64,000 nt of DNA, taken from positions 17,273 through 81,272 of IMG/VR virus record IMGVR_UViG_3300021963_005223; one strand, given 5' to 3'. The stretch's first letter is position 1; every line of letters starts with the position of its first letter. The notes under the pieces were generated by a model. It searched no databases and was not told where the DNA came from. It saw only the letters and a list, made by a program, of their open reading frames with translations. Source of the DNA: a virus. The position numbers were made by a program, and so were the translations under genes. Of the stretch, positions 8,682-15,780 are shown piece after piece.

Positions 8682-8692
8682 AGGTGATTGAT

Positions 8693-9250
8693 ATGATGCA
8701 AAAATTAAATTTACAGGTAAAAGAAGAACATTCACGCCATTCGTTTTTCTTGCTGATGGAAGAAGTTACATTGGCAACTTGTAAACAAGCAGTTGAGTGG
8801 ATATTTGAAAATAATTTCCAAGAAGATCGTGCCGATTTATTGAACATGGTTATCACTTCTCCAGGTGGTGACTTGAATGCAGCTTTTGCATTAGTTGATA
8901 CTATGCGTGGTTCAGCTATCCCAATTAGAACAATCGGACTTGGTCAGATTGCTTCAGCTGGACTAATGATTTTTATTGCTGGTGAAAAAGGAAACCGAAT
9001 CCTTACACCAAATACATCTATTCTTTCGCATCAATATTCGTGGGGTGCGTTTGGTAAAGAACATGAGTTATTTGCGACAGTGAAAGAATTTGATTTGACC
9101 ACGAAACGTATGATTAGTCATTATAAAAAATGTACTGGATTATCTGAGAAAAAGATTCGTGAGGTTCTATTACCACCACAAGATATGTGGTTATCAGCAA
9201 CCGAAGCAAAAGAGTTAGGATTGTGCGATGCAGTTAAAGACATTAATTAA
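8693..9250 (+). CDS. clpP: ClpP-like serine protease
   Basis: Start set at ATG 8693, with AAGGTG six bases ahead; a GTG at 8684 in the same frame would place the ribosome site inside the gene. About 185 aa, the length of bacterial ClpP. Catalytic Ser is in GQIASAGLMIFIAGEKGNR, catalytic His in LTPNTSILSHQYSWG, and the Asp is probably in the DLTTKRMI helix region; the N-terminal MVITSPGGDLNAAFALVDTMR holds the oxyanion-side GG. ClpP forms a barrel protease that degrades tagged or unfolded proteins with ClpX/ClpA; phage copies may replace host ClpP or process virion proteins. It lies about 1.2 kb after the tmRNA, whose tag ends in the ClpX-type LAA. Confidence 0.9.
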   Translation: MMQKLNLQVKEEHSRHSFFLLMEEVTLATCKQAVEWIFENNFQEDRADLLNMVITSPGGDLNAAFALVDTMRGSAIPIRTIGLGQIASAGLMIFIAGEKGNRILTPNTSILSHQYSWGAFGKEHELFATVKEFDLTTKRMISHYKKCTGLSEKKIREVLLPPQDMWLSATEAKELGLCDAVKDIN

Positions 9251-13084: not shown

Positions 13085-14878
13085 TTATGTTGCGAATCGT
13101 GACCTAACGTATCGACTCATTGTTTGTTCTTGATTGCGAACAGGTAATTGAACCACTGAATTATTAGTTGTCTTATTATTTGTTACTGGAGCGACAACAG
13201 TATTACCACCACTACCACCACCTGCTACTGCAGCAGTTCTGGCTCCATCATTGGCAGCTGATTGATTGGAAACGAAGTTTGCTTGTCCCATCGCTGCACC
13301 CATAGCAACAATTTTATCAGTAGGTAATGCAGCAATGGCTTTAATATTTTCTGGTTTAATATCAGAGAACATCTTAAGTCCAGCACCAAGTTTCTCAACA
13401 CCAATACCTGCTTTCTCAATATTTTGTCCATGTTCACCTAAAGCAATAATCTGATCCACTGGAGATTTTTGTCCAGAAACTTTAGATAGTAGACCACCAA
13501 CTAAGTTGCCTATACCACCTACTACGTTGGCTGCAGCAAAAGCAGCCATACCACCAGAAACTGCCAGTAAACCTGCGCCAACCATCATAAGATTGTTTCC
13601 ATCTACAGCAGCTAATCTTTCAATGGAAGAGGTGATAGCATTTATGGTTGCAATAATTGCTTCAGATATGGCTCCGATAACACCCATAACAACATTACCG
13701 ACAGCACTAATAATTTCAGGAATTTTTTCAATAGCTGCCACGAATACGTTTTGAACAACGTCTGCCACTTTAATTAAAACTGGAGCGAATGCTTCCATAA
13801 ATGGCGCAGCGTATTCAAGTGCTTTACCTATTCCCATAAACGCTAAAACTGCTGCACCAAGACCTAGAAGAACTTTTGGATTTGCTAAAGCAGAAACACC
13901 TTGCGCAATTCCTATTAGCAGTGCTTTAATACCTGCACCTGCGCCAGCACCGATTGATTTTAAACCAGCTCCAAGTGCTTTAAATCCTGCACCTAGTGCT
14001 CCTAGTATTCCAGCACCCATCCCACTACCATCACTGGGAGCAGCTGCTTTCATTTTATCACCACCCATTGCAGATGTGTTCTTTGATATTTCTTGTAGTA
14101 GTTTAGTTTGTGCTTCTTCACGACGAGCAGATTCCATTTCTTCTTCAGAAACATTCATCGCATCGTTTTGTTCTTTATTTGTTAATTCAGTTCCAGCTGC
14201 TTGTGGTTTTGCTATTAAATTCGCACGTAAGTCTGTTTTAGCAAATGCATCAGATAGTGATTCACGTTTAGATAATAAACGCTGTCCTTCTTTCGTACCA
14301 GCCATTTGTTTATCATTTAAGCCAGTTTCTTTTTTAAACTTTTCTAAATCAGCTTCATTTGATTTAATACTCTTTGCTGTCTTATTTCTTTCTTCAAAAT
14401 CTTGACCAAGTTCTTTATATGACTTTTCGCTTCCTAGTTTCTTTTGCTGATCAGCGAATTCTCTTGAAGCAATTTTCTTATCAAACATACCACCTACATT
14501 AATTGCTTTGAGTGCAGTTGTCCCTGTTGCTCTGGCTGATCCAAATTTATCCCCAAAACTTTTCCCAAGATTTGCAAATTTATCTCTAATCGAGTCGAAG
14601 GTTTTTACAGTTGACGCTATATTTGCAATTGCTTCAGATTCTTCACCTTTGATTCTTTTTAATTCGTCCGCAGAAACTTTACTAACTTGAACAAGTTCTT
14701 CTTGTTGTTCTAGCTGTTTCTTTTGGACTTTAAGTATTTCTTCTTCACGTTTAGCTGGCGCACCAGATTCAGCCAATGTTCTAATTGTTTGAATGTGTTC
14801 TAGCGATAACTGTTGAACTTCCAACAGTTTCTTAAAATCGCTCGATTGAACATGAATCGTCATCGGTGGTTTAGCCAT
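13085..14878 (-). CDS. 29: Tail tape measure protein, gp29-like
   Basis: 597 aa, near T4 gp29 (590). The N-terminal 200 residues are helical with heptads and many Lys/Glu/Gln (EILKVQKKQLEQQEELVQVSK), followed by a Gly/Ala-rich hydrophobic centre (residues about 275-440: GAGILGALGAGFKALGAGLK, KVLLGLGAAVLAFMGIGKAL, EIISAVGNVVMGVIGAISEA), then a short C-terminal domain ending SRYVRSRFAT. Hydrophobic segments between coiled coils are typical of tape measures. It follows the gp26/gp51-like chaperone pair exactly as tape measures do in other tailed phages. It would set tail length and pass into the membrane. The gp29 name rests on size, composition and position rather than on motif identity. Confidence 0.72.
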   Translation of the reverse strand: MAKPPMTIHVQSSDFKKLLEVQQLSLEHIQTIRTLAESGAPAKREEEILKVQKKQLEQQEELVQVSKVSADELKRIKGEESEAIANIASTVKTFDSIRDKFANLGKSFGDKFGSARATGTTALKAINVGGMFDKKIASREFADQQKKLGSEKSYKELGQDFEERNKTAKSIKSNEADLEKFKKETGLNDKQMAGTKEGQRLLSKRESLSDAFAKTDLRANLIAKPQAAGTELTNKEQNDAMNVSEEEMESARREEAQTKLLQEISKNTSAMGGDKMKAAAPSDGSGMGAGILGALGAGFKALGAGLKSIGAGAGAGIKALLIGIAQGVSALANPKVLLGLGAAVLAFMGIGKALEYAAPFMEAFAPVLIKVADVVQNVFVAAIEKIPEIISAVGNVVMGVIGAISEAIIATINAITSSIERLAAVDGNNLMMVGAGLLAVSGGMAAFAAANVVGGIGNLVGGLLSKVSGQKSPVDQIIALGEHGQNIEKAGIGVEKLGAGLKMFSDIKPENIKAIAALPTDKIVAMGAAMGQANFVSNQSAANDGARTAAVAGGGSGGNTVVAPVTNNKTTNNSVVQLPVRNQEQTMSRYVRSRFAT

Positions 14879-14881
14879 ACT

Positions 14882-15028
14882 TTACCTTTTTTTCTGTGCT
14901 TCTAATCTCTGTTTTTCTTCTTCTAAATGCTTAATTAACATGGCAACATACACTTCTCTTTCAAACGGAATCATATTCTCAAGTTCCGTTAGCGAGTATT
15001 TGTGGTACTGCATCAAAGCAAAATTCAT
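14882..15028 (-). CDS. 51: gp51-like tail assembly chaperone part (likely -1 frameshift extension of gp26)
   Basis: From ATG 15028 the frame encodes 48 aa: FALMQYHKYSLTELENMIP then FEREVYVAMLIKHLEEEKQRL, the pattern of the second, frameshifted part of tail assembly chaperones (lambda GT-type) and of small T4-like gp51 proteins. The same frame is open upstream to 15070, where it meets the T-run at the end of gp26, so the likely main product is a gp26 fusion reading SFF-LINLCHDSLFNYYK-MNFALMQ. The isolated ATG has no convincing ribosome site. Four bases separate its stop from the tape measure ATG. Chaperone for the tape measure is the expected function. Confidence 0.75.
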   Translation of the reverse strand: MNFALMQYHKYSLTELENMIPFEREVYVAMLIKHLEEEKQRLEAQKKR

Positions 15029-15066
15029 TTTATAATAATTGAACAAACTATCATGACAAAGGTTTA

Positions 15067-15780
15067 TTAAAAAAAACTTTGGAGTCCCTCCAAAACTTTA
15101 TGGTGAGCACGATTACAAACAGGGCAGTTATAATTAACTTCTTGTTTTAATCTCGGCATAGTTTCAAAGAACTTTTGCACTTTGGCAAATTGCTCAGAAG
15201 TTAAGTTGTTAATAAAATCTAACAGTTCTTCTTGAGTCTGTTCTTTTCCATAAAATAGTTCGTCACCTTGATAAATGTAATCAATACATTCAGCAACAAT
15301 TTTGAATAAATCATCAAGATTGTTTACATCAAGGTTCTGTAATTTCTTTAACACTTGCATTGTAGGGTATTTCATCACAACACCAACGTCGCCGAATAAG
15401 TGAACCTTATTATTGTGGTCTGGTGATTTTTCTACCTGCAGTTTCGTAATATCAAAAGAGATTTGAACTCTGGCTTTTTCATCTTCGCAAACATCACATG
15501 GGAAAATTAAATCTACAGTTTCCCCAACAGACTTTGCACGCAATTGAGTGAAAATATATTCTAAATCAAATGTTGCTATTTCATCAGCATTAAAATCTCC
15601 AACTACACACGTCTTAATAACATCTTTAAGCGTATTAACCATAACGATTGGGTCTTCGCTTTGTTGTGCCATCATTAATGCTTTTTCTTCACGAACCAAA
15701 AATGGTCTATATTTTACTTCTTTCCCAGTAGATGGGATCGTCAACGTATACGTTGGCGTGCTACTCATTGGTAATGCCAT
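15067..15780 (-). CDS. 26: gp26-like baseplate hub / tail assembly chaperone
   Basis: 237 aa from ATG 15780 (MALPMSSTPTYTLTIPSTGK), with AAAGGAGATTGAAT upstream; a TTG six bases earlier overlaps that site and is rejected. The sequence has the T4 base-plate protein family pattern (PF12322-like): EVKYRPFLVREEKALMMA, TFDLEYIFTQLRAKSVGE, and two CxxC pairs (FPCDVCEDE and NCPVCNRAHH) able to bind zinc. It ends GLQSFF at a run of eight T, where a -1 shift continues into the gp51-like frame. In T4, gp26 is needed for hub assembly. Confidence 0.85.
   Translation of the reverse strand: MALPMSSTPTYTLTIPSTGKEVKYRPFLVREEKALMMAQQSEDPIVMVNTLKDVIKTCVVGDFNADEIATFDLEYIFTQLRAKSVGETVDLIFPCDVCEDEKARVQISFDITKLQVEKSPDHNNKVHLFGDVGVVMKYPTMQVLKKLQNLDVNNLDDLFKIVAECIDYIYQGDELFYGKEQTQEELLDFINNLTSEQFAKVQKFFETMPRLKQEVNYNCPVCNRAHHKVLEGLQSFF
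15068..15076 (-). promoter_or_regulatory. Programmed -1 frameshift slippery site
   Basis: On the minus strand the gp26 gene ends AGT TTT TTT TAA. The T-TTT-TTT heptamer is a classical -1 slippery site; after slippage, reading continues TTA ATA AAC CTT and stays open for 62 codons to TAA at 14882-14884, joining gp26 to the gp51-like protein. The stop codon directly after the site would favour slippage. Confidence 0.75.

Follow-up and report, generated by a model that had tools for sequence, protein, structure and literature searches.

A predicted programmed −1 ribosomal frameshift joining gp26 and a gp51-like segment in an uncultivated T4-like phage

The gp26 gene of an uncultivated marine T4-like phage very probably ends in a programmed −1 ribosomal frameshift, which would yield two chaperones, a short gp26 (gpG-like) and a long gp26-gp51 fusion (gpGT-like). 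We put the probability of this reading at about 0.93. The observations that carry it are a slippery sequence at the end of gp26, the conservation of this signal in related loci, selection acting in the −1 frame, homology between the fusion and T4 gp51, and a chaperone-like fold of gp26.

The gp26 gene, slip site and −1 frame in the window

The analysed stretch of DNA (the window; 64,000 nucleotides) comes from an 81 kb virus record of a T4-like phage, for which the closest isolate, as judged by gp26, is Pelagibacter phage HTVC008M (43.5% identity). The gene order on the minus strand was found to be gp4, gp2 (DNA end protector), tail tube protein, small terminase, gp26, the gp51-like segment and a 597-residue gene; the features are compiled in Table 1. 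Profile searches revealed a match of PF12322 to residues 9-237 of gp26. The protein contains two CxxC pairs, CDVC near residue 95 and CPVC near residue 220, which might make up a zinc ribbon as in T4 gp26; neither pair is present in gp26 of HTVC008M or S-RIM44, so some lineages seem to have lost the site.

Around the slip site, the minus strand reads TTG GAG GGA CTC CAA AGT TTT TTT TAA TAA ACC. The initial annotation had described a TTTTTTT heptamer with a stop right behind it at the gp26 end, and both are seen in the minus-strand sequence, where the run is in fact 8 T's long, as the stop codon contributes its T to the seven of the heptamer. Among the 72 ATG-initiated ORFs of at least 80 aa in the window, gp26 alone carries an in-phase T6 within its last 10 codons. 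A −1 slip would bring TTA ATA AAC CTT TGT CAT GAT (LINLCHD) into frame as the codons read next. The −1 frame had been predicted to be open through 14 linker codons towards the next gene; it reads LINLCHDSLFNYYK-MNFALMQYHKYSL... and stays open for 62 codons, of which the 14 linker codons (peptide LINLCHDSLFNYYK) precede the first ATG, and it closes with a TAA (14884-14882) 3 nt ahead of the ATG at 14878 with which the next gene begins. In profile searches, the −1 segment matched phrog_634, "baseplate hub assembly catalyst" (E 1.5e-26), and the extension also matched positions 238-281 of phrog_150. BLASTP of the segment against the C-terminus of T4 gp51 gave an E value of 5e-9 as a single comparison.

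The product of the next gene is a putative tape measure protein, as judged from its position and composition. In HTVC008M and Cr30, the tape measure annotation is on the gene right after gp51 or one further. Profile searches with the 597-aa gene gave no Pfam or PHROG match, and the similarity of its product to the HTVC008M tape measure was not significant. Elsewhere in the window, at 8684-9250 on the plus strand, a translation resembling a ClpP-type serine protease (MVITSPGGDLNAAFALVD..., IASAGLMIF...) was noted by eye.

Table 1. Positions of the features discussed, in window coordinates
Feature	Position	Strand	Size or basis
Head closure gp4	17976-17542	−	
gp26, short form (TAC-N, lambda gpG counterpart)	15067..15780	−	237 aa; PF12322 E 2e-63, phrog_150 E 1.3e-69 (profile searches), AlphaFold model
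Shine-Dalgarno-like GGAGGG, proposed stimulator	15086..15091	−	GGAGG ends 10 nt upstream of the heptamer
Slippery heptamer T_TTT_TTT (plus strand AAAAAAA), in phase with gp26	15070..15076	−	sequence
gp26 stop TAA, directly behind the heptamer	15069-15067	−	sequence
−1 frame extension (TAC-C, lambda T counterpart)	14882..15070, including stop	−	62 aa, LINLCHDSLFNYYKMNFALMQYHKYSLTELENMIPFERE...QKKR
Putative tape measure protein, next gene downstream	13085..14878	−	597 aa; position and composition

Conservation of the slip site and selection in the −1 frame

Loci of gp26 were gathered from viral contigs and isolates using five gp26 sequences and T4 gp51 as queries, which gave 190 usable loci, 16 of T4 type and 174 others. 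A conserved T-run and an open −1 frame at the gp26 ends of related phages had been named as the check to perform, and an in-phase TTTTTTT or TTTTTTC with an open −1 frame was indeed found in 173 of the 174 non-T4-type loci, the lone exception being Vibrio phage K452. The slip site was absent from all 16 T4-type gp26 loci. Across the 173 loci, the heptamer was placed 7 to 31 nt before the stop, and the complete −1 extensions were all 56-68 aa long. The retention of both the heptamer and the open −1 frame in 173 loci implies that the T-run is not due to chance. In the 75 divergent representatives (<85% nucleotide identity), the first Phe codon of the heptamer was TTT in 75/75 and the preceding base was T in 75/75, whereas in the remainder of gp26 TTT makes up 68% of Phe codons (nominal p 4e-13, relatedness ignored). 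The −1 frame was free of stops for 30 codons in 116/116 distinct loci, while frames 0 and +1 had a stop within 30 codons in every one of them.

This breadth bears on whether gp26 and gp51 might be a single ORF in which the homopolymer was miscounted, homopolymers being error-prone under some sequencing methods. The frame relation is, however, common to 173 loci from independent assemblies and isolates, including KVP40, Aeh1, HTVC008M and S-RIM44, and most loci have T6C instead of a long homopolymer, by which a sequencing or assembly artefact is already refuted. Transcriptional slippage, with one U added to the run in part of the mRNA, would lead to the same −1 product; 8 consecutive T's are present in the window and its clade, and slippage by bacterial RNA polymerase occurs where 9 A or T stand in a row (PMC5009743). 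Yet most relatives carry TTTTTTC, with only 6 T's, and an unchanged −1 extension, so that the shared mechanism needs no polymerase slippage, and the upstream GGAGG, whose position is under selection, would act on ribosomes. We consider slippage of the polymerase very unlikely, though conceivable for the 8-T run of the window taken by itself.

The proposal that the linker codons stay open because they are used was borne out by their substitution pattern. In linker codons 0-13, purifying selection acts on the −1 frame alone, with dN/dS values of 0.18 in window-like loci and 0.10 in all loci, as opposed to about 1-2 when the same bases are read in other frames. Together with the frame being open in 116 loci, the low dN/dS confined to that frame argues for translation of the linker in the −1 frame. 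This evidence also speaks to the alternative in which gp51 is a separate gene, translated from the ATG at codon 15 of the −1 frame, with the T-run being incidental. Many related records do annotate a CDS from the internal ATG, and in KVP40-type phages an ATG overlaps the gp26 stop; against this stand the conservation, as protein, of the codons ahead of the ATG, the fixed first Phe codon and preceding base in the 75 representatives and the fact that T4 gp51 is one continuous fusion. Furthermore, the candidate −1-frame start codons lack a Shine-Dalgarno sequence, and the location of the first −1-frame ATG differs among loci. The mean Shine-Dalgarno value at this ATG was −0.13 kcal/mol versus −4.45 kcal/mol at the gp26 start; in the window, the corresponding values were +1.0 and −8.7 kcal/mol. 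A separately initiated gp51 is judged very unlikely.

The related phage records that were examined have either two annotated genes or the second one unannotated. Where the gp51-like segment is annotated in public records, it is given as a separate CDS begun at the internal ATG, and several isolate records, such as NC_020837 (S-CAM1) and KU686210 (S-WAM1), hold no annotated gene for it.

In the Vibrio lineage of phages K452 and K397, the gp51-like segment lies in the −1 frame with a TAATG stop/start overlap and without a slippery heptamer (ACG CTT TTT GCG TAATG in K452, L089 2902-3905; CTTTTCAAG TAATG in K397, L193 1381-2337). The next annotated genes in these two phages are not tape measure genes. 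This lineage may use reinitiation or another slip, and its −1 arrangement without the heptamer counts against the frameshift explanation.

T4 genes 26 and 51, the gp26 fold and known systems

Alignment of the fusion profile to T4 gp51 covered positions 23-282, crossing the junction, whereas the alignment to T4 gp26 ended at the junction. PF12322 was matched by both T4 proteins. T4 gp51 covers almost all of phrog_150 and its C-terminal part, which corresponds to the −1 extension of the window, covers phrog_634. In T4, genes 26 and 51 are complete and lie on opposite strands, whereas in non-T4-type phages the long form would arise via the frameshift. Since gp51 aligns across the junction, gp26 aligns up to it and the two genes are on separate strands, the alignments indicate that T4 encodes each form, the short one and the fused long one, in a complete gene of its own and that T4 gp51 is homologous to the whole fusion. 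T4 gp28, suggested by eye as a third paralogue, was dismissed, as the fusion profile gave no support for it; T4 gp26 weakly matches the gp28 PHROG phrog_1140 (E 0.0009).

The AlphaFold model of gp26 had a mean pLDDT of 83.7. Comparison of model residues 1-85 with the HK97 gp13 tail assembly chaperone (2ob9) gave Z 7.7 and an rmsd of 3.8 Å over 83/107 residues, whereby, according to the warning of the tool, matches of Z 7-8 can be common. Two structures whose function is unknown also matched, 3fgx at Z 7.7 and 5ir0 at Z 5.6, followed by an unrelated structure at Z 3.7. A sequence search with gp26 against the PDB returned nothing significant. The model thus suggests, with moderate strength, a tail assembly chaperone-like fold for gp26, and because Foldseek alone gave an E value of about 1 for 2ob9, the match is taken as support and not as proof.

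The initial annotation had likened the arrangement to lambda G/GT, a likeness that is supported by the location ahead of the gene in the tape measure position, the fold match to HK97 gp13 and the homology of the fusion to T4 gp51. Its pairing of gp26 and gp51 with G and GT stood in the first half: gp26 is the counterpart of G, but the counterpart of GT is here the gp26-gp51 fusion and not the gp51 ORF alone, which is the long form only in T4 itself. A tail assembly chaperone role for the T4 "baseplate hub" proteins gp26 and gp51 is supported by many metagenomic loci, as is the view that the gp51 of non-T4-type phages forms one half of a fusion and is not a separate gene.

The 2022 Virology paper of Vladimirov, Gautam and Davidson is reported to have established which proteins serve as tail assembly chaperones in T4-like phages, with frameshifting reportedly conserved in several T4-like groups and with T4 genes 26 and 51 as separate forms. 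In the system reported there for T4-like phages not of the T4 type, a gp26-family TAC-N and a poly-T −1 signal would lead to TAC-NC, and the window, from another uncultivated phage lineage, shows the same layout. Because a gp26/gp51 frameshift is reportedly already published for T4-like phages, the window is a further and well-supported new case of a known arrangement; its upstream GGAGG without downstream structure is possibly an addition to what was published. Two citing papers describe, respectively, one short gene plus one fused long gene in some T4-like phages (PMC10885494) and poly-T slip sequences in TAC-N genes of T4-like phages (PMC12846349).

Proposed course of the frameshift and its stimulators

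We infer the following course, which includes the shift itself, its rate, the role of GGAGG and the binding partners of the products. Most ribosomes on gp26 would be stopped by the TAA, giving the short form of the tail assembly chaperone (237 residues). In a minority, the 16S anti-Shine-Dalgarno sequence would pair with the upstream GGAGG and so hold the ribosome over T_TTT_TTT; these ribosomes would slip one base back and read 62 further codons, resulting in the 299-residue gp26-gp51 fusion. By analogy to lambda gpG/gpGT, the short form would coat the tape measure protein, probably the product of 13085-14878, and tail tube subunits would be recruited by the C-terminal extension that the few long copies carry; neither chaperone would need to stay in the virion.

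A Shine-Dalgarno-like element upstream of a homopolymeric slip heptamer is shared with E. coli dnaX, in which it is located about 10 nt upstream; dnaX differs in having A_AAA_AAG and a downstream stem-loop, whereas the window has T_TTT_TTT with no downstream structure seen. The slip sequence of lambda G/GT, GGGAAAG, likewise differs from that of the window, and no sequence similarity between the two systems was shown. The lambda ratio of gpG to gpGT is about 30:1, and gpGT binds the major tail protein through its T part (PMC5009743). Counting against the frameshift, U_UUU_UUU is much less shift-prone than A_AAA_AAG in E. coli constructs (PMC5009743).

For the GGAGGG of the window, the duplex with the anti-Shine-Dalgarno sequence was calculated at −9.8 kcal/mol. 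Over the 75 representatives, the mean was −6.26 kcal/mol, compared with −4.72 ± 0.14 in synonymous resampling (0/300), and Glu codons at the upstream element were GAG in 35/42 cases versus 147/533 elsewhere. Duplex strength beyond that of synonymous resampling and the GAG bias point to selection on the GGAGG element at the nucleotide level, beyond the protein sequence, and on the basis of this codon bias a stimulator role is possible. An upstream hairpin (TTTTGGAG-GGA-CTCCAAAG) predicted in the window was set aside as incidental, its pairing not being preserved in relatives on inspection by eye.

Downstream of the heptamer, neither a pseudoknot nor a hairpin was detected in the window (z about 0 or above). 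Over all representatives, downstream folding had a mean z of −1.5 at offset 5. In cyanophage-type loci (L104-L179), unlike the window, a hairpin (CTCTTCCA...TGGAAGGG) was observed about 2-38 nt past TTTTTTC, with 87.6% of cells paired versus 43-53% when slid. As this pairing is high but compensatory changes in the covariation analysis were no higher than in shuffles, the cyanophage hairpin is likely, though not proven, to be real.

We give even odds to a picture in which the stimulators differ by clade, the window having a strong GGAGG and T_TTT_TTT with no downstream structure and the cyanophage-type loci combining T_TTT_TTC and a downstream hairpin with an upstream element of lesser strength, while T4 replaced frameshifting by gene duplication and the Vibrio K452 lineage lost the heptamer; this two-stimulator picture is descriptive, the groups being compared without correction for phylogeny. 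The comparison of stimulators lends itself to simple tests of how a frameshift signal comes to be rewired without loss of its product. A trade-off between the upstream and downstream elements was considered and set aside; with relatedness uncorrected, their rank correlation was weak (rho −0.29).
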